A stretch of 64,000 bases of DNA from Pseudooceanicola nanhaiensis (GTDB taxonomy: Bacteria > Pseudomonadota > Alphaproteobacteria > Rhodobacterales > Rhodobacteraceae): positions 124,001 to 188,000 of the forward strand of contig NZ_JAIUZP010000005.1 of the NCBI RefSeq assembly GCF_020171315.1. Direction: 5' to 3'. The notes beneath the pieces were generated by a model. That model was not told where the DNA came from and ran no database searches. It saw nothing but the letters and a program-made list of their open reading frames with translations. Below are positions 40,906 through 49,422 of the stretch, one piece after another (the first letter of the stretch is position 1; each line of letters begins with the position of its first letter). A program made the translations under genes and the position numbers.

Positions 40906-41005
40906 TGATCGCCGCAGGGCCGGATCGCTAAAACTGGATTTGTTAAGCCCCCTGCAAGACCTGCCCCGCTAGACCTCGCCCCGGGTGAGATAAGTGGTGG
41001 TGGAG

Positions 41006-41863
41006 ATGAGCGCGCAGAACAAGGCGGCGCCCATCATCATCAAGAAGAAGAAAATCACGGGCGGTGACGGGCACCATGGCGGTGCCTGGAAGGTCGCCTA
41101 CGCCGATTTCGTGACGGCGATGATGGCCTTCTTCCTGTTGATGTGGCTGCTGAATGCAACGACCGAAAAGCAACGCAAGGGGATCGCGGATTACTTCTCT
41201 CCGACGATCCCGCTGAACCGGGTGTCCGGCGGGGGCGATGGCGCCTTCGGGGGGGAATCTGTCTTCTCCGAGATGACCCATCCCAAGCAGGGGACAGGCG
41301 CGACCGCGCTGCGCCCGACCGAGGAAGACGCGGCGCGCGGGGACAGCGGCCTCGACCGCGAAGGGCGCGACGGGGAGGAGGTCGACGACCGGGCCTTCGC
41401 CGAGATCGAAGAGGCGCTGATGGGCCGTGGCGGGGAGAGCCTCGTCGCCCCCGAGATCCTGAAGCACATTGTCACCCGGGTGACGGACGAGGGCCTCGTG
41501 ATCGAGCTCTTCGACCTGCGCGACGCGCCGCTCTTCAAGGGTGACACCGCGGATCCGACCGTGCTTCTCGAAGACCTCGCCGCGATGCTCGTCCGGGTCA
41601 GCGGCTTGGTCCGCAACCGCATCGCGGTCGAAGGGCATGTGAGCGCGCGGCCCGTGGTGCTTTCCTCCAATCCCGTCTGGGACCTGTCCACGACGCGGGC
41701 GATCGCCATGCGTCACGAGATGGCCGGGCTTGGCATGGATCGGGACCGGGTGATCCGCGTCACCGGCCATGCCGATCGCGAGCCATCGGTGCGCAATCCC
41801 ATGGCAGTGCGCAACAACCGGCTGGAGATCATCCTGCTGCGCAGCGACCGGCCGCGCGAATAG
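41006..41863 (+). CDS. motB: Flagellar motor protein MotB
   Basis: A 285-residue stator protein. A basic cytoplasmic tail (IIIKKKK) is followed by the single helix YADFVTAMMAFFLLMWLLN, where D34 is the proton-binding Asp. A plug region and a C-terminal OmpA-like peptidoglycan-binding domain follow (about 150-280, with RPVVLSSNPVWDLSTTRA and TGHADREP). GTG 40994 is a possible earlier start, but family members begin at the MSAQ-like residue. motA is not adjacent. The hook gene follows after 99 bp. Confidence 0.9.
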   Translation: MSAQNKAAPIIIKKKKITGGDGHHGGAWKVAYADFVTAMMAFFLLMWLLNATTEKQRKGIADYFSPTIPLNRVSGGGDGAFGGESVFSEMTHPKQGTGATALRPTEEDAARGDSGLDREGRDGEEVDDRAFAEIEEALMGRGGESLVAPEILKHIVTRVTDEGLVIELFDLRDAPLFKGDTADPTVLLEDLAAMLVRVSGLVRNRIAVEGHVSARPVVLSSNPVWDLSTTRAIAMRHEMAGLGMDRDRVIRVTGHADREPSVRNPMAVRNNRLEIILLRSDRPRE

Positions 41864-41962
41864 GGCAGGGAATAGGCCAGATTTTACCTGTTAGGGTCAT
41901 GTTAATGCGCCGCGCGTAGCAAGGCTGCAGACCGAGGGTCTATGCAGCAGAAAGGCGTATTC

Positions 41963-43528
41963 ATGACGATCTCCTCCTCGATGAACGCGGGCGTGGCGGG
42001 ACTGTTCACCAACTCGGCCAAGCTGGCCACGATCGCAGACAACATCGCGAATTCGGCAACCTACGGCTACAAGCGGGCCGAGGCTGACTTCCACTCGCTC
42101 GTGATCGGGGCGAACAACGGGGGCTATACCGCCGGCGGTGTCCGGGTCACGACCCAGCGCCTGATCGACGAGCGGGGGCCGCTGGTCACCACCAACAACG
42201 CCACCGATCTCGCGGTGCGGGGCCGGGGCCTGATCCCCGTGGCGCCAGCCTACGAGGTGGAAAATACCGGCACCTTCGACCGGATGATGCTGACGACCAC
42301 CGGATCTTTCCGGGCGGACGCGGATGGCTACCTCCGGACGGAGTCTGGCCTCATGCTCCTGGGCTGGCCCGCCGACAGTTCCGGCGAGATCCCGACCTAT
42401 CCGCGCGACACCTCCGACGGGCTGGAGCCTGTGCAGATCAACGTGAACCTCTTCTCCGGCGAGCCGACGACGAGCGTCTATCTGGGCGTCAACCTTCCCG
42501 CGACCGAGACTGCCTCCACCGCCGATGGCGACATGCAGGAACTGCTGGTCGAATATTACGACAACCTCGGCAAGTCGGAGACGTTGACCGTTCAGTTCAC
42601 CCCGACGGTCCCCGCAACCGGCAGTTCCAACGAATGGACCATGGTGATCACCGACAGTGCCTCGGGCGGAACTGTGGTCGGGGAATACACGCTGACATTC
42701 GACGACAGCCGGACCTCGGGGGGTACGCTTCTCTCCGTCGCAGAAACCACCGGTACCGCCTACGACCCGGCGACCGGGACGGTAATCGTGACTGCCGCGG
42801 GCGGCCCGATCGAGATCGACCTTGGCATGATCGGCGAATCCGATGGCCTGACCCAGCTCTCCGACAGTTTCGCGCCGGTTTCCATCACCAAGGATGGCTC
42901 GCCGGTGGGGAACATGACCTCGGTCGAGGTGGATGCCAATGGCTACGTCCACGCCTATTTCGACACCGGCGTGCGCCGCACCATCTACCAGGTGCCGCTG
43001 GCGGATCTGCCCAATGTCAACGGCCTCGTCGCGCTGGATTACCAGACCTACTACCCCTCTCCGGACAGCGGGAAGTTCTATCTCTGGGATGCCGGTGACG
43101 GACCCACCGGGGACGTCGTCGCCTTTGCCCGGGAGGAATCGGCAACCGATGTGGCCGCCGAACTGACCGAGATGATCCAGACCCAGCGGGCCTATTCGAC
43201 CAATGCCAAGGTCTTCCAAACCGTGGAGTTGTCCTTGGCGTCGGCGACACGTTTGCCGGTGGAGATTTGGCTCTGGGTTTCGGTCATCGACTTGTTGACC
43301 GACTTGAGCGTTTGCAGCGCAACCATGGCGCTGTTGTTCGTGAGGATGCTGGACATGCAATGTTCCTTGGTCGTACAGCGCGGTTCGGCGCCGGTTACAC
43401 AGCCCGTCCGGAGGAGGCTGCCCTCCGCCGACCGGTTTGAATGTCGTTCTGACCATTGCAGCCGTCCTTGTATCCCGGCCGCGCCATCCGCTTCGGATGC
43501 GGGGGCACATTGCGCCACGAAAGCCTAA
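41963..43528 (+). pseudogene. flgE: Flagellar hook protein FlgE, 3'-truncated and fused to antisense flagellin sequence
   Basis: The first 421 codons (to about 43225) are a normal-looking hook protein. They include the N-terminal rod-like helix (MTISSSMNAGVAGLF, DNIANSATYGYKR), a D1/D2 middle and the conserved C-terminal TEMIQTQRAYSTNAKVFQTV. At that point FlgE proteins continue with a short DEM-type helix ending in LKR. Here the frame runs on for 100 unrelated residues, which are the reverse complement of a flagellin gene start and its leader. The C-terminal coiled-coil needed for hook assembly is therefore altered. ATG 41963 has AAAGG 7 nt upstream; an ATG at 41942 is in frame. See the junction finding. 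Confidence 0.85.
43216..43356 (-). pseudogene. fliC: Flagellin N-terminal fragment (47 codons)
   Basis: On the minus strand, ATG 43356 with AAGGAAC upstream opens 47 codons that match the conserved flagellin N-terminus: MSSILTNNSAMVALQTLKS, then SQISTGKRVADAKDNSTVW. Immediately after the Trp, where flagellins continue with AIS-like helix residues, the sequence changes to antisense flgE. The remaining 80-90% of the gene is absent. The upstream 238 bp (43357-43594) are its old leader and promoter region and hold no other gene. Confidence 0.85.
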
Positions 43529-43594
43529 CAGAACCCTAATCGTCACCGCGCCTTTCGGAGGGATTTAACTCAACTCCTGCTCAACCCGGACCGA

Positions 43595-43954
43595 TCAGGC
43601 ACGTTTCTCGACCTGGTGGTCGGGCTGGGTCGTGACCTCCTGCCGGCGCCCGGCCTCGTCATAGGTTTCAAGCGTGCGCCGAATGCGGCGCAACGTGCCC
43701 ATGCGGTTCGCCACGGTGCGAATCCCCCTCAGCGTGCCGTCGAGGAGCGCCTGGTTGCGCAGCGCCTTCACCTGCAGTCCTTCAAGTTCGCGCTGCGCGG
43801 CACCCTCCAGCGCGCCGAGCTGTTCGACAAGCGCCTCCTTCCGTTCGAGCAGGCCGCGGATCGCCGTCAGATCGCCGGACAGCAGGGTGCGCCGCTCCTC
43901 TTCCAGCAGGGCATCGAGGGCGTCGATCAAGGTTTCGTCCCGGTCAGTTTCCAT
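43595..43954 (-). CDS. flgN: FlgN-like flagellar chaperone
   Basis: A 119-residue, mostly alpha-helical protein rich in Leu, Glu and Arg. It has heptad-like spacing (LLEEERRTLLSGDLTAIRGLLERKEALVEQL), as in FlgN-type chaperones for hook-associated proteins. The assignment rests on size, helical pattern and position between the FlgJ-like gene and the flagellin start. It overlaps the FlgJ-like gene by 11 bp. Its export clients FlgK and FlgL are not encoded in the window. Confidence 0.65.
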   Translation of the reverse strand: METDRDETLIDALDALLEEERRTLLSGDLTAIRGLLERKEALVEQLGALEGAAQRELEGLQVKALRNQALLDGTLRGIRTVANRMGTLRRIRRTLETYDEAGRRQEVTTQPDHQVEKRA

Positions 43955-44228
43955 GGATTTCTCTTTCTTTCAATGTGTTGAACAGGGCCTCCGCGAGGCC
44001 GATGCCCCCGGCGGAGGCAAGGGCACGTGCTTGCTCGTCGCGCAGGAAGGAGGCGAATTGCGCCTCTCCGGTACCGCCACCGAAAGCGCCCGGGACCTCG
44101 CCCAGGCCCGCCGCGCCGAGCATTTCGGAGAGGAAGGCCGCCTCCAGATCGCGGGCAACGGTGCGCAGCCTGACATCGGGCGAAGGGGGCAGCGGCAGGG
44201 GGCCGACTGCCGGGAGTGGGTCTGGCAT
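43944..44228 (-). CDS. Rod-binding protein FlgJ-like (N-terminal domain only)
   Basis: A 94-residue protein matching the rod-binding domain of FlgJ: TVARDLEAAFLSEMLGAAGLGEVP, then FGGGTGEAQFASFLRDEQARALA, then GIGLAEALF. It lacks the muramidase domain found in gamma-proteobacterial FlgJ, which is usual for alphaproteobacteria. It should assist rod assembly in the periplasm. ATG 44228 is preferred, with GGAGAG upstream. It is divergent from fliK. Confidence 0.8.
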   Translation of the reverse strand: MPDPLPAVGPLPLPPSPDVRLRTVARDLEAAFLSEMLGAAGLGEVPGAFGGGTGEAQFASFLRDEQARALASAGGIGLAEALFNTLKEREIHGN

Positions 44229-44338
44229 GGGGTCTCTCCAATTGGACTCAGTTTTCCGAGTCTGGCGCGAGAGCAGTAAAGATGTGGTAATCACCTGAGA
44301 GCATTGTTGGGCCCGAAGGAAGAACTCCCGAGGTCCGA

Positions 44339-47300
44339 ATGAAAACCTCTGCCATCATCTCCCTGTTGACCGGGGCAAAGCTGTCGAAAGTCACCCCTGC
44401 CGACGTGCCGGGGCACGGCGGCAGCGTGGATTTCCAGACCGTATTTCAGGACGCCGGGCGCGATCACCGGGCGGAGCAGGGCAAGTCGCTGCCCGCATCG
44501 GATACAGGCGTGGCCGTCGAAGAAGACGTGGTGCCCGAGTCGGACGAGTTTACCGAGGAGGCGCCGGAGGATGCCGCGCCGGAGCCCTGTGCGAGCGCAG
44601 CGATGGACAGCGGCCAACCCGCAGGCGCGGCAGTCCTTGGGCCATATGCGCCCGTTGACCCGTCCCGGGAGGCTCCCGCGGAACCACTTGGCAGGCCTGC
44701 GGCAGCGGGAACTGTGGGAACACAGGGCGTGCTGGCTGTAGCGGAGAGTCTTCCTGAAGGCGTCGCTATCAGACCGCCAGCGCCCCGATCAGATGTCGAC
44801 GCCGCCCTGCAGAACGTAAGTGGCAGAGCAACACCAGCAACGATACGGGCCCTTCCGTCTCTCCCTCCGAACCGCGACGCAAAGGCGTTGGATGTCGGCC
44901 CTGCGGGGGAGGAGCAGGCGATGCAGCCAGGCGGCCGTGGATCAAGTCAGGCGCCTGCGCCGTCTATTGAAGCGACGGCCATAAGCTTTGTTATCGCTGA
45001 TCGCCGCTTCCCCAGCGTTCCATTGGAACCGAACGACGGGATGGGCGGACGGAGTCTGCTGGCGGAGCAACGTCCCCCGGCACGTTTGCGGGAGGTCCCG
45101 CCCGCGCGGGCTGAGACACGGGTGCAGCCGACGGAGCTCAAGGCAACAGGCGCGACGATTGATCACGAGACCCGCCATCTGAGACAGACCGCGGAACCGG
45201 AGGCCTCCCTGGTATCTCCCGTGCCGCAACGAGGGACGCAACCGACGCCGCCGGCGCGCGTCAGCCTGTTGCCGGAAACGCTTGATGTGCCCTCTCCCGC
45301 CCGGGCTGCACCGACCCTCCCAAGGTCTCTCGCTGATGCCGATGCCCTGCGCGGTCCCCATGAACAGGGTAGCACCGCGAGGGGCGTCATTCCGGCGTCG
45401 AAACTGCTACTGGGAGAGGGCGGGGAGAGCTTTACAGGCCGACGATCGATCGCGGTTTCTGTGCGCCCGAAGGCTGGCGCCGCGGCGGAGGGACGTCAAA
45501 GCGCGCCCGTCTCCGGGAGGCGTGCCGAGGCTCCAGCCGCGTTGCCTCGCGCTACCCCGCGCGCGTCGATCTGGCAATCCGTCGCAGACCGTGCGACGGA
45601 GTATGGTGTCGTGGAAAAACTTGTGAAGACTCCAGGCCCTAACGGCGATGAAAACTTCGCGCTGCACCCTGCGGGCCCGGTTGCGGCGCAGCGCGATGCT
45701 CTAGATCGGGCGCGCGCGGGTACAGCGGATTCTCCCCAAACTCCTGCGAGCAGCCAGGGAGGGAGGGCAACCGACCAAGAGGCCGCGCCCGCGCCCTTGC
45801 CACGCGTGGCGCAGGTAGCGGAGCCCCGGTCCGGTGAGGCACCAGATCGCGCTCTGCGCGCTTCCATTGTCGTTGGGGCACAGGCTTTGCGCCTGCGCAA
45901 CCGCAGCGCAGATGGAAACCCTTCCAACCTCCAGATCGATAGTCCGGAGGAAACGTCTCTGCCGCCCTCCTTTCGTGAGCGCTTGTTTGCGCCTGGGGCG
46001 GCGACACGCGCGCCTCTGCTCGACGCGACGCAGACCGTGCGTGTTCGGGGCGGCGAAGTGGAGGTACGTCCCGCCACGCTGGAGGTTTCTGGCGACCAGT
46101 TGACAACGGCGGGGGATCAAGAGCCGGGACCGTCGGAGGACCATCGTCGAACTTCCGGTGCGACGGGCCCGCAGCAGCCCTCAGGGAGAGGGCCTCGGGA
46201 CATTGCGCTGACCATGCCACCGGTCCCGGATCGCTTGTCGAAAACAGAGGCGTACAGCCCGCGACTGGAAGCGGAACCGATCAAGGCCCCTAAAGAGGGC
46301 AAGAGGCGCACAGCGTTTGAAGCCGGTGCAAACCTGCTCAAGGCAGGCCGCTTGGACATGCAATCGGAAGAGGGCGTGCGGTTTCAGAAGCTGGGCCCAA
46401 AGTCTGTGGCAGGGACGCGTCCTGCGCGGCCACCAGATCTGCATGAGGCGTATCAGCGCCCGACAAGCGGCAAACCGATGCCGCGCGGTACTGCCTCCTC
46501 GACCGACGAGAGGCCCGCGACTTCGGCCTCGGCACTTGCCCCGGCGGTTCGCTCTGCAATCTTGTCCAATGGTGGCTCTGAAAGTATGGCGGTGCCCGGG
46601 CAGAACAGTCTCCTTCCGGTTCCATCCGAGAGGGCAGGCACCGTGCCGAGCGTTAAGGCGTTGAATGTGCGCACCCCGGTTGAGACGCGGACACACGCGG
46701 CACGAGACGGGACCGCGAAATTGCCGCCTACCCCGGCCAGACCGGAGGTCGCCGGAGTGACTGCACCCCCGGAGGTACCGAGGCATCGGCCTGAGGCACC
46801 ACCTGCGTCATTGGGCCCAGGAGGGGGCGCAGTGGCAACGGTGCAGAAGGCCTCCATCTGGCAGGGCGGCGCTGCGCCTGATCCTATTTCGCTGCCGAAT
46901 GCGGACGGGCGAGTAAACCTTGAGACGCTTCGACCGGGCGGTGCTTTGGGGGCAGCCGCGCCGAAGGTCTCGCTGCACGACTCCAGCCAGACTGGGCTTA
47001 AACCCGAAGGCTTGCCCATCACGCGGTTGCCGCAGGCGTCTGGCGATGGGCAGAGGAACGCGTCGCCTGCCACGGGCAGAAACGGGGGCCCTGTTGTGGA
47101 GACTGCCGAAGTCTCCCGTCAGCCTGATCCCGTGGCGGTGCGAAAGGCAGGTGCTGATCATCTGATAGTTTCGCTGCCACCGGACGAAAACGCTCAGCCT
47201 CCCCATGGCGATAGGGCGCGCGAGGCTCAGCCGTCCCTGCCCATTGGCCGCGGGGGGGCCGCCGGCGCGACATCTGGCGTTGAGAGCGCGAGGCCTGGGC

Positions 47301-48724
47301 TGGTCGAGAGGGTGACGGGTGGCAACCCGCTGCCGACCGAACCGTCGGCGCCCGAGGCTGTGGTACAGCGCGCTCGGCCAGATACAGGGGTGGTGGCGCG
47401 CAAAATGACTGCTTCCGCGTCGGCGGATGTCTCGACCGTGCGCGTTCAGGAGAGGGAGGTGCCTTCGCGCGCGACCCAGACGTACGCAGAGCGTCGCGAT
47501 GGGGTGTCCGCGCGTCGCGAGGGTGACCCGGCGATGCGGTACGCGGAGGGCAGCCCGCGCGCGTTAGCCCAGCCCCGGGGCTATCCGGTGGGCCGTGACC
47601 TGCGCCAGGCCGACGAGCCGGTCGCCTCCCATGCCGGGACGAAACCGAGACCGCCCGAACCCCGTGCTGATCTTTCGATGCAGGACGGGGAGAACCAGAG
47701 ATGGACCAGAGAGTCACCGGTCTCGCCCGAGAAGATCGAGATGCCCCGCGACATGCCGCGGATGAGCTCGATGAGCGACGGGGCGAGCAGGCGCGCCATG
47801 GCGGCACCGAGACCGTCGCGTGCGCCTGTTGTCCTGTCGAAGGAAGGCCTGTCCACCGTAGCAGTCCCTCAGCCGGTTGACGGAAGGCCGGTCGCAAGGG
47901 ACCGCGCAGGGCCTGTTTCGGGGCATTGGGTGACTGTGGAGGCGCGGTCTTTGGCAGCTGGCGGTGACCACGCGCAGGAACGTCCTCGAGGGACCCCCGA
48001 AGCCCCTGTGCCGGTGCAGCCCCCGGTGGCGGGCGGAACATCGCTGCCGCATAAGGGGGCGCGCAGTCCGGCAGAGCCCGTGATGGTGGAAGCCGAACCC
48101 GTTCAGGCGCGGCCTATGTCTGAGGCGCGCCGTGTCACCCGGGCGGCCGAAAACCCGCAACCTGTCCCGGCGGCGGGGCCTCCCGTCGAAGAGGCGGTCG
48201 TTGTCGTCGAGGAGCCGGGGTCCGACGGGTCCGAAGGGCCGGAGGTGCCGTTTTTCGACGGTGCGGGGCGTTCTTTGACGCCGGTGGAGCCTCGTACGAC
48301 AGGCCTGCGGGGGGCGGAGCCCGCGATGCCGCGCCAGATCGCCGCGCAGATTGCCATGGCCGCGCGCCAGATCGTGGAGCGCCCGGTGGAGATCTGCCTG
48401 CAGCCGGAGGAGTTGGGGCATGTGCGGCTCCACGTTCAGCCAACCGAGGGTGGTGTCATCCTCAGCATCACGGTGGAGCGGCAGGAGACGCTGGACCTGA
48501 TGCGTCGCCATGCGGAGCCGCTTGCGCGGGAGCTTTTGGCAGAGGGCTACCAGGATGTGCAACTCAGCTTCTCCCAGGGCAGGAGCGACGATCGGGGCGA
48601 CGGAGAGGCTTCGCCCCAGGGCGGTCAGCCAGACCGGACGGCGGAGGCGCCGGGCAGGCCCGTGGCCGACGTGCTGGCAGCACATGGGGCGATCATGGTG
48701 AGCGGATTGGATCTGAGACTTTAG
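44339..48724 (+). CDS. fliK: Flagellar hook-length control protein FliK, unusually long
   Basis: A 1461-residue protein whose last about 135 residues carry the Flg_hook domain: MPRQIAAQIAMAARQIVERP, then ICLQPEELGHVRLHVQ, then LDLMRRHAEPLARELLAEGY and a DVQLSFSQG strand. The preceding about 1300 residues are rich in Pro, Ala, Arg, Ser and Glu, with no predicted globular domain. This is a very long molecular-ruler part, since FliK is commonly about 400-700 residues. Codon use in the middle (about 44.7-47.3 kb) is less GC3-biased than in neighbouring genes, which suggests weak constraint. flgD follows after 8 bp. FliK would set hook length and switch export specificity. Confidence 0.85.
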   Translation: MKTSAIISLLTGAKLSKVTPADVPGHGGSVDFQTVFQDAGRDHRAEQGKSLPASDTGVAVEEDVVPESDEFTEEAPEDAAPEPCASAAMDSGQPAGAAVLGPYAPVDPSREAPAEPLGRPAAAGTVGTQGVLAVAESLPEGVAIRPPAPRSDVDAALQNVSGRATPATIRALPSLPPNRDAKALDVGPAGEEQAMQPGGRGSSQAPAPSIEATAISFVIADRRFPSVPLEPNDGMGGRSLLAEQRPPARLREVPPARAETRVQPTELKATGATIDHETRHLRQTAEPEASLVSPVPQRGTQPTPPARVSLLPETLDVPSPARAAPTLPRSLADADALRGPHEQGSTARGVIPASKLLLGEGGESFTGRRSIAVSVRPKAGAAAEGRQSAPVSGRRAEAPAALPRATPRASIWQSVADRATEYGVVEKLVKTPGPNGDENFALHPAGPVAAQRDALDRARAGTADSPQTPASSQGGRATDQEAAPAPLPRVAQVAEPRSGEAPDRALRASIVVGAQALRLRNRSADGNPSNLQIDSPEETSLPPSFRERLFAPGAATRAPLLDATQTVRVRGGEVEVRPATLEVSGDQLTTAGDQEPGPSEDHRRTSGATGPQQPSGRGPRDIALTMPPVPDRLSKTEAYSPRLEAEPIKAPKEGKRRTAFEAGANLLKAGRLDMQSEEGVRFQKLGPKSVAGTRPARPPDLHEAYQRPTSGKPMPRGTASSTDERPATSASALAPAVRSAILSNGGSESMAVPGQNSLLPVPSERAGTVPSVKALNVRTPVETRTHAARDGTAKLPPTPARPEVAGVTAPPEVPRHRPEAPPASLGPGGGAVATVQKASIWQGGAAPDPISLPNADGRVNLETLRPGGALGAAAPKVSLHDSSQTGLKPEGLPITRLPQASGDGQRNASPATGRNGGPVVETAEVSRQPDPVAVRKAGADHLIVSLPPDENAQPPHGDRAREAQPSLPIGRGGAAGATSGVESARPGLVERVTGGNPLPTEPSAPEAVVQRARPDTGVVARKMTASASADVSTVRVQEREVPSRATQTYAERRDGVSARREGDPAMRYAEGSPRALAQPRGYPVGRDLRQADEPVASHAGTKPRPPEPRADLSMQDGENQRWTRESPVSPEKIEMPRDMPRMSSMSDGASRRAMAAPRPSRAPVVLSKEGLSTVAVPQPVDGRPVARDRAGPVSGHWVTVEARSLAAGGDHAQERPRGTPEAPVPVQPPVAGGTSLPHKGARSPAEPVMVEAEPVQARPMSEARRVTRAAENPQPVPAAGPPVEEAVVVVEEPGSDGSEGPEVPFFDGAGRSLTPVEPRTTGLRGAEPAMPRQIAAQIAMAARQIVERPVEICLQPEELGHVRLHVQPTEGGVILSITVERQETLDLMRRHAEPLARELLAEGYQDVQLSFSQGRSDDRGDGEASPQGGQPDRTAEAPGRPVADVLAAHGAIMVSGLDLRL

Positions 48725-48732
48725 GAGGCAAG

Positions 48733-49422
48733 ATGGAGACCACGAGCATTTCAGCCATGGCGGGGACGGCGGCCTCTGCCGCGAGTACGTCGGCCAGCAA
48801 CAGCGGGTCGGCCGGGGCAGCGCTCAGTTCCGATTTCCAGACGTTCCTCAACATGCTGGCCACGCAGTTGAAGAATCAGGATCCGCTCGATCCGGTGGAT
48901 GCGGAGGACTTTGCCGTCCAGCTCGCAACCTTCTCGGGGGTGGAACAGCAGGTGATGACGAACAACCTGCTGCAGAGTCTTTACAGCCAGATGGGCCTGT
49001 CGGGGCTCGCCGATATCTCGGCATGGGTCGGGATGGAGGCCCGCAGCATCGCGCCGGCCTATTGGGATGGGAGCAGCGTGACCCTCGCGCCGAACCCGCT
49101 GGCGGCGGCCGATGAAGCCTATGTCATCGTGCGCGACGAGGATGGCAACGAGGTGGACCGCTTCGAGATCGATGTTTCTGCCGATCCCGTGGAGTGGGAC
49201 GGGACGACCCAGTCGGGCGCGGTCCTGCCCTTCGGGTATTACAGCTTCGAGCTGGAGAACATGATCGACGGCGACGTGGCTGCGACCGATGCGGTCGAGA
49301 CCTACTCTCTCGTTACCGAGACGCAACTGGTGGACGGGCAGTTGATCCTCGTGCTCTCCGGTGGGGGGCGGATCCTGACCAGTGACGTGACCGGGCTGCG
49401 GCGACCGTCCGGGGCCAGCTGA
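48733..49422 (+). CDS. flgD: Flagellar hook capping protein FlgD
   Basis: A 229-residue protein. The N-terminal region has the export and cap segment DFQTFLNMLATQLKNQDPLDPVDAEDFAVQLATFSGVEQQ, diagnostic for FlgD. The Ig/FlgD-like C-terminal half (about 95-225) contains a VEWDGTTQSGAVLPFGYYSFE strand set. It caps the growing hook. It is likely co-transcribed with fliK. The 258 bp after it (49423-49680) show no supported gene. Confidence 0.9.
   Translation: METTSISAMAGTAASAASTSASNSGSAGAALSSDFQTFLNMLATQLKNQDPLDPVDAEDFAVQLATFSGVEQQVMTNNLLQSLYSQMGLSGLADISAWVGMEARSIAPAYWDGSSVTLAPNPLAAADEAYVIVRDEDGNEVDRFEIDVSADPVEWDGTTQSGAVLPFGYYSFELENMIDGDVAATDAVETYSLVTETQLVDGQLILVLSGGGRILTSDVTGLRRPSGAS

Follow-up and report, generated by a model that had tools for sequence, protein, structure and literature searches.

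The locus examined here raises the question of how a flagellar hook gene comes to run into an inverted flagellin gene, and whether this join is peculiar to one strain. It lies within the window, by which we mean the whole 64,000-nucleotide stretch of Pseudooceanicola nanhaiensis DNA that was analysed (G000:C5:124001-188000; source assembly a 4.8-Mb draft of 30 contigs), whose relatives are Rhodobacteraceae resembling Pseudooceanicola; among the best database relatives, the named FlgE nearest to its own is that of Pseudooceanicola sp. 502str34. As read from the sequence, codon 421 of flgE is joined to antisense fliC codons 44-1. The retained part of the hook gene (flgE', codons 1-421, 41963..43225, plus strand) ends in KVFQTV with codon 421 at 43225, the last 12 of the 433 codons of intact relatives being gone; residues 1-421/422 match NCBIfam hook models, and flgE' is 95% identical in amino acids, and 91% in nucleotides over its last 328 bp, to the intact flgE of a relative (G005). 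The plus-strand frame stays open across the junction (41963..43528), so that FlgE' is followed by ~100 residues translated from antisense fliC and the DNA upstream of it. The minus-strand frame that begins with the ATG at 43356 is 54 codons long, and its first 47 codons (MSSILTNN...DNSTVW) reach 43216; the fliC stub itself (43228..43356, minus strand) comprises the first 43 whole codons of the fla1 flagellin, its start codon included, with codon 44 falling in the crossover window. The minus-strand peptide matches flagellin model PRK12687 at E 1.7e-15, under the model's curated cut-off because it spans just the first 48 model positions, and Pfam Flagellin_N matches at the stub with 29.2 bits (positions 1-45).

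A preliminary description of this DNA had read flgE as normal through KVFQTV at codon 421 and then as a reverse-complemented flagellin start, with a minus-strand ATG at 43356 and 47 conserved codons ending at Trp (43216); coordinates and family matches agree with it on both points. It was also correct that a 12-bp overlap (43216-43227) fits both genes; in 15 intact relatives this is an imperfect direct repeat (7-11/12 matching). Comparison with relatives narrows the switch further. At 43224 the DNA has T, as in FlgE, whereas all 28 intact fla1-type flagellins among the matches listed have Ala here and so an antisense C; at 43228 its G agrees with flagellin when intact relatives are compared. 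The switch thus falls in a crossover window of 3 bp, 43225..43227, that is common to flgE and antisense fliC.

The flanks of the fla1 cluster are kept on either side. To the left, motB (40994..41863, plus strand; NCBIfam MotB PRK09041, 2.9e-49, under the curated cut-off) precedes flgE here, in G005 and in all 12 other genomes found to carry the same fusion. To the right lies a minus-strand gene (43595..43954) without a match in an NCBIfam search, which from its position we take to be flgN-like and which has a similar counterpart in five of the 12 other fused genomes. It is followed by a flgJ-like rod-binding protein gene (43944..44294, minus strand; NCBIfam FlgJ PRK12790, 4.1e-9, under the curated cut-off), present to the right of the scar in 12/12 other fused genomes. 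Between flgJ and flgD stands a long low-complexity ORF of 1461 residues (44339..48724, plus strand), presumably fliK on the strength of position alone, for which the NCBIfam search likewise returned no match. The last kept fla1 gene, flgD (48733..49422, plus strand; NCBIfam PRK12813, 1.8e-83, above cut-off), is retained in 12/12 other fused genomes. The locus thereby shows the motB-flgE synteny with a fla1-type FlgE that marks a fla1 remnant, whilst a complete fla1 set from motB to flgD is lacking, ~29.5 kb being gone; the fla1 label itself is assigned by gene order as given in PMC12363192. Separately, we observed that dS against G005 rises from 0.18-0.29 at 30-36 kb to 0.5-1.0 at 38-50 kb, a stretch of polysaccharide and flagellar genes (window 30325-50352), which suggests that the 38-50 kb stretch may have been replaced by recombination either in the window strain or in G005.

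In G005, flgE and antisense fliC are found in equal order and orientation ~29.5 kb apart, with flanks shared with the window, a gene order that bears out the earlier suggestion of a deletion between a plus-strand flgE and a minus-strand fliC. The intervening segment contains what we take, mostly by sequence or position, to be flgK, flgL, flgI, fliP, fliF, motA, flhB, flgH, flgG, flgF, flgB, flbT, flaF and the rest of fliC; flhA, also inside the segment, was confirmed by family. When 17.5 kb of this segment was compared as DNA with the window genome, distant pieces alone were recovered (67-89%), eight of nine on contig C14 and one, a 35-bp match, on C6, and FlhA is present in one copy in the window genome (on C14) vs two in G005. 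Absence in the window genome covers these 17.5 kb as DNA, all but the last ~11.6 kb of the segment, together with FlhA, Flagellin_N and FlgE. No inverted or reciprocal copy of the missing segment was present in these searched parts (17.5 kb of DNA; flagellin, FlgE, FlhA), and the absence there of a close copy indicates deletion rather than inversion. The window junction is accordingly read, from gene content and order, as almost certainly the scar of a ~29.5 kb deletion (size taken from G005) through which the body of the fla1 cluster was lost. Inversion or translocation of the segment, the former having been put forward as an alternative history, was dismissed for want of any copy in what was searched of the window genome, as was an invertible flagellar switch, both gene halves in inverted order being absent from the same searched parts. 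The expected loss of flgK, flgL and flgI is upheld in that all three lie inside the G005 segment; the extent of the loss had been underestimated, as it reaches ~29.5 kb and includes export genes such as flhA. That the join might instead be a chimera of assembly or sequencing is barely credible: whilst the source is a draft of 30 contigs, the same junction is found in other assemblies, three of them listed as a single contig (G186, G413, G313), and those of the missing genes that were looked for have gone and not moved elsewhere. The junction is also internal to the 525-kb contig C5, with zero N across 41500-44200.

The window genome carries a second flagellar set on C14, a 79.7-kb contig with flgE, two Flagellin_N genes and FlhA, so that the search of the genome for a second fliC and flgE proved productive, whilst the 17.5 kb of fla1 segment DNA used as query has no close copy there. 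Over 8 kb this cluster is similar to plasmid clusters annotated with flgE, flgK, flgI and flagellin, for example that of Marinovum algicola DG 898, which is the fla2 reference strain of PMC12363192; by this similarity the C14 cluster appears fla2-like. The C14 contig itself (L004, L005) may be a plasmid. With a fla2-like cluster still present, one of two systems was lost by the deletion, and motility may persist via the other. The view that the strain lacks an intact hook C-terminus and flagellin at this locus consequently stands for the locus, but the strain need not be aflagellate.

The junction is not confined to this strain. A 77-position junction profile, run on 394 family genomes (393 genera), gave some match in 321, of which 13 contain the full junction (E 1e-44 to 9e-34, the next best partial match being 4e-22), and the order motB-flgE'|fliC stub-flgJ-flgD is maintained in 12/12 other fused genomes. 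The identical junction and flanks in 13 of 394 genomes argue against the local accident that the preliminary description had implied. FlhA is absent in nine of the 13, and in nine of the 13 Flagellin_N matches at the stub only. Each of the four other fused genomes has one FlhA, at a distance from the scar: on another contig in three and ~420 kb off in G149. These copies score 775-825 bits vs 709-729 bits for fla1-type copies of the window's genus, and by score and place we infer that they are probably not fla1-type. Amongst database proteins, the anchor QTV motif is present in 118 of the 120 best matches to the fused one, and in 29 of the 118 antisense flagellin begins with the residue that follows, a fused query naturally favouring fused matches; named examples include Sulfitobacter porphyrae, S. 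noctilucicola, Roseivivax halotolerans and Roseivivax sp. THAF40. Relatives whose FlgE carries such a tail do therefore exist, as had been envisaged, but they carry the same deletion and not a naturally longer FlgE. A natural 100-residue tail was rejected on this basis, the relatives' tails being antisense flagellin starts, and stop codons inside the matched stretch in seven of the 13 fused genomes indicate that the FlgE' tail is not a conserved part of the protein. A warning follows from this: among the 202 FlgE protein clusters retrieved, in a sample that fused queries had biased, 33 end in a spurious stretch of antisense flagellin. Searches of viral contigs and phages revealed no carrier of the junction, and a plasmid search gave matches, the best being MotB/FlgE of other species, of which none covers 80% of the query.

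Whether these junctions descend from one event was addressed with FlgE trees. On a tree of 224 rows the 44 fused sequences need 24 changes, 19 of them forced by starred branches, whilst shuffled labels gave a mean of 40.6 changes and 0/500 as low as 24, indicating that the fused label is partly clustered and that part of the cases may share an event. A 306-row tree gave 34 changes, 23 forced, against 46.0 for shuffled labels, the values of 34 and 23 being slightly high as P0202 was mislabelled fused there (corrected in the 64-row set). Seven starred groups of the 224-row tree join fused with intact FlgE (L129 with P0001/L007; P0030 with L071; P0005 with P0027/P0033; P0020 with P0073; P0045 with P0094; P0038 with L153; L134 with L029). 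With a better model on 64 chosen rows, the minimum for 20 fused sequences is 17 changes (14 of them forced), and the hypothesis of one fused clade is rejected (AU p 1.6e-69). These rows were hand-chosen (20/48 fused, 16 intact, most near fused ones, and 28 random), with the long rows L132 and L139, the duplicates L073 and L080, long or fla2-type intact rows and 24/33 fused database proteins left out, so that 17 changes (shuffled 17.2) are no proof of random scatter. A single origin of the junction was nevertheless discarded, since fused FlgE do not form one clade in the trees, including the 64-row set. Among close pairs, Sulfitobacter sp. DFL-14 keeps flgK, flgL, flgI, fliP, fliN, fliH, fliF and fliL (10 kb examined), and its intact FlgE is nearly identical to the fused FlgE of S. 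porphyrae.

Rather than arising repeatedly, one deletion could have been spread between genera by homologous recombination of its flanks, for instance through gene transfer agents, which are found in the order (PMC12363192). Such spread would account at once for the identical junction, and dS of the window locus to G005 above that of its left flank makes a larger import possible in this strain. Nevertheless we consider it improbable. Besides the failure of fused FlgE to form one clade, spread by recombination would make fused genomes alike near the junction, and they are not: pairs matched for far divergence differ, over the 78 bp to the left of the repeat, by 0.220 (fused-fused) vs 0.220 (fused-plain) and by 0.253 vs 0.256, with 0.256 vs 0.198 in the smallest bin (3 fused pairs), and stubs of fused genomes are no closer to one another than otherwise (0.308 vs 0.280; 10 fused, 29 intact, the comparison having taken in 10 of 14 distinct fused stubs). 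Local transfer is thus not supported by sequence on either side. Moreover, ~10 bp from the junction, at a position occupied by an Ile codon in most other genera, the window still has TTC, as is typical of its own genus. Taking trees, local divergence and constraint together, an origin of the junction that was repeated and independent is very probable.

We then asked what the two sites share that could bring them together so often. Both contain an imperfect CCAGACNG(T/C)NGA repeat, and ordinary microhomology-mediated deletion, repeated because loss of fla1 is often favoured and because conserved genes always offer the same imperfect repeat, is an obvious candidate, the more so as sporadic independent losses of fla1 are known (PMC12363192). 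Across 15 intact genomes the sites match at 7-11/12 positions with exact runs of 4-8 bp, reaching 11/12 in three of the 15. However, the cluster ends of each of these genomes contain 124 to 354,429 12-mer pairs at least as good. By gapped window scores the site pair is moderately outstanding in two genomes, both among the three with 11/12, being equalled by 41-43/3000 random window pairs, and is equalled by 203-2622/3000 in the other thirteen. The junction does, then, hold a shared stretch of 12 bp, albeit imperfect, but in none of the 15 genomes does homology single out the site pair, and with at least 124 equally good pairs per genome microhomology alone does not pick the flgE/fliC combination. 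The 10-12 bp of microhomology originally proposed is real as a 12-bp overlap and insufficient as an explanation; as a sufficient cause it was set aside, equally good pairs being abundant in 15/15 intact clusters.

The position of the switch points the same way. All 14 distinct DNA junctions retain the FlgE T, and 13 of the 14 then switch to flagellin within 2-3 bp, the pattern CARACNGTNGNRTTRTC being found at the junction in 12 of 13 fused genomes. The exceptions are G434, in which GATCCG stands right of the T and the switch point could not be placed, and, among the 33 fused database proteins, P0068, which has Ala and not the Val coded by T. Because 14/14 still show the base of FlgE where the two sites usually differ, the switch is located to the right of this mismatch and not inside the longer matching block, which counts against microhomology, and deletions ending elsewhere in flgE were not seen in these searches. 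We therefore regard repeated microhomology-mediated deletion, unaided, as doubtful. A crossover at the same few bp, as in 13 of the 14 distinct junctions, is what site-specific recombination would produce, and a site-directed process, acting through a putative agent, is the likeliest source of this precision, although we would give it somewhat less than even odds from the sequence patterns available. However, synonymous positions of both sites vary in flgE and in fliC, so that neither is a DNA site conserved beyond its codon constraint, which counts against a DNA-sequence-specific enzyme, since such enzymes usually require a conserved site. No reciprocal (circle or inverted) junction was detected in viral_contigs or 269 loci, a control pattern also having given nothing in viral_contigs, which makes this a weak test.

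The flgE::fliC junction is not the sole way to lose fla1. FlhA is missing in 84 of the 394 genomes, 25 of which keep a flgE or fliC match, nine with the flgE::fliC scar and 16 without (a split made by eye from the FlhA list vs the junction-profile list). Fourteen of these 16 keep flgE, as does G200, which has a sub-threshold FlhA alone, and flgE adjoins flgK in all 15, in damaged or partial form in G115 and G160. Reading further downstream in ten of the 15 revealed a second scar in two, in which the 3' part of fliP, beginning at ~codon 184, abuts DNA from immediately upstream of fliC (L254:12724-12888 in G115, L251:14142-14309 in G393), and a third in one, with flgI running straight into flgD (L256:4564-5241 in G261). 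G115 and G393 belong to different genera, but their FlgE are 83% identical and the two may possibly share one event; the remaining flgE-flgK genomes may represent other losses or assembly gaps. Both FlhA and any flgE/fliC match are lacking in 58 genomes; at E 1e-20 a fla1 motB was found in none of these and in 3/3 controls. The scope of this survey was genomes lacking FlhA, leaving out those that keep a fla2- or fla3-type FlhA after loss of fla1.

Both remnants are still constrained. Relative to G005, dN/dS in the window is 0.029 for flgE' and 0.012 for the stub, and across the last 300 bp of flgE divergence by codon position is 0.209/0.153/0.525 in fused genomes vs 0.241/0.185/0.537 in intact ones, from which many of the losses look recent. 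Constraint on fused FlgE could alternatively mean that the remnant has a use, and in its strongest form this would make the fused remnant a functional unit kept by selection and old in several clades. In most fused genomes flgE' and the stub are indeed open and constrained, and fused sequences do group, as near S. noctilucicola and the two Roseivivax, where ten fused sequences and a single intact one stand together. Against this, nine of the 13 fused genomes are without FlhA to export anything and seven of the 13 have stops in the matched stretch; fused and intact sisters exist at almost no distance; flgE' is broken and frameshifted in G313; two fused FlgE (G152, G149) have very long branches in the 224-row tree; and fused end branches are somewhat longer in the 306-row tree (median 0.063 vs 0.041, p 0.054). 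An old functional unit thus seems slightly less probable even than spread between genera. Three of these sequences, L198 (G313), L132 and L139 (G152, G149), look like older losses in decay.

The best explanation, to which we assign a probability of roughly 0.75, is a recurrent, recent and sequence-directed deletion of fla1. Specific breakage or recombination would occur at two codon-conserved sites, flgE codon 421 and fliC codon 44, to be followed by joining within a 2-3 bp window with loss of the ~29.5 kb between, the loss afterwards being favoured by selection or tolerated. A bolder proposal, which we think unlikely, is that Rhodobacteraceae possess a built-in or strongly site-directed fla1 excision, whereby the same two coding sites are cut repeatedly and aflagellate lines are shed from a flagellated lineage that persists; if true, such excision would account for junctions that are almost identical and dispersed over the tree, for fused and intact strains that barely differ and for the constraint on the remnants. 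Tomasch et al. 2025 (PMC12363192) describe fla1 as the ancestral system, passed on vertically and lost sporadically and independently, and fla2 as one that has moved horizontally; the sections consulted mention no scar or common breakpoint, and the main text has 0 occurrences of remnant, lost or pseudogene. Nor was a report of a flgE::antisense fliC junction found in the literature searched. Parallel losses of gene clusters are common, but one would not expect them to reuse a window of a few bp across many genera when no special homology directs them there. If confirmed, recurrent sequence-directed deletion would point either to a mechanism of deletion not yet known or to a programmed transition by which members of an abundant marine group give up swimming, and the junction would provide a single PCR-sized marker with which to count flagellum loss in cultures and metagenomes.

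Set against known systems, the scar shares features with several. Microhomology-mediated and replication-slippage deletions in bacteria join genes at a short shared stretch with loss of the intervening DNA, and a short shared stretch is present here also; unlike in such deletions, the stretch is a poor match that many other pairs equal, and still one junction reappears in genus after genus. Site-specific excision and inversion systems, such as Hin-type flagellar phase variation, are alike in that the crossover is nearly fixed within 2-3 bp and a flagellin gene is involved, and differ in that the DNA site here is not conserved beyond codons and no reciprocal product was seen (in a weak test on viral_contigs and 269 loci). 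In comparison with the fla1 cluster of Rhodobacterales, as presented in PMC12363192, the window retains the motB-flgE and flgJ/flgD flanks, and the body found in G005 is deleted. The fla2 cluster, often on plasmids in the same source, is what the C14 cluster resembles, a separate system that lies outside the scar.
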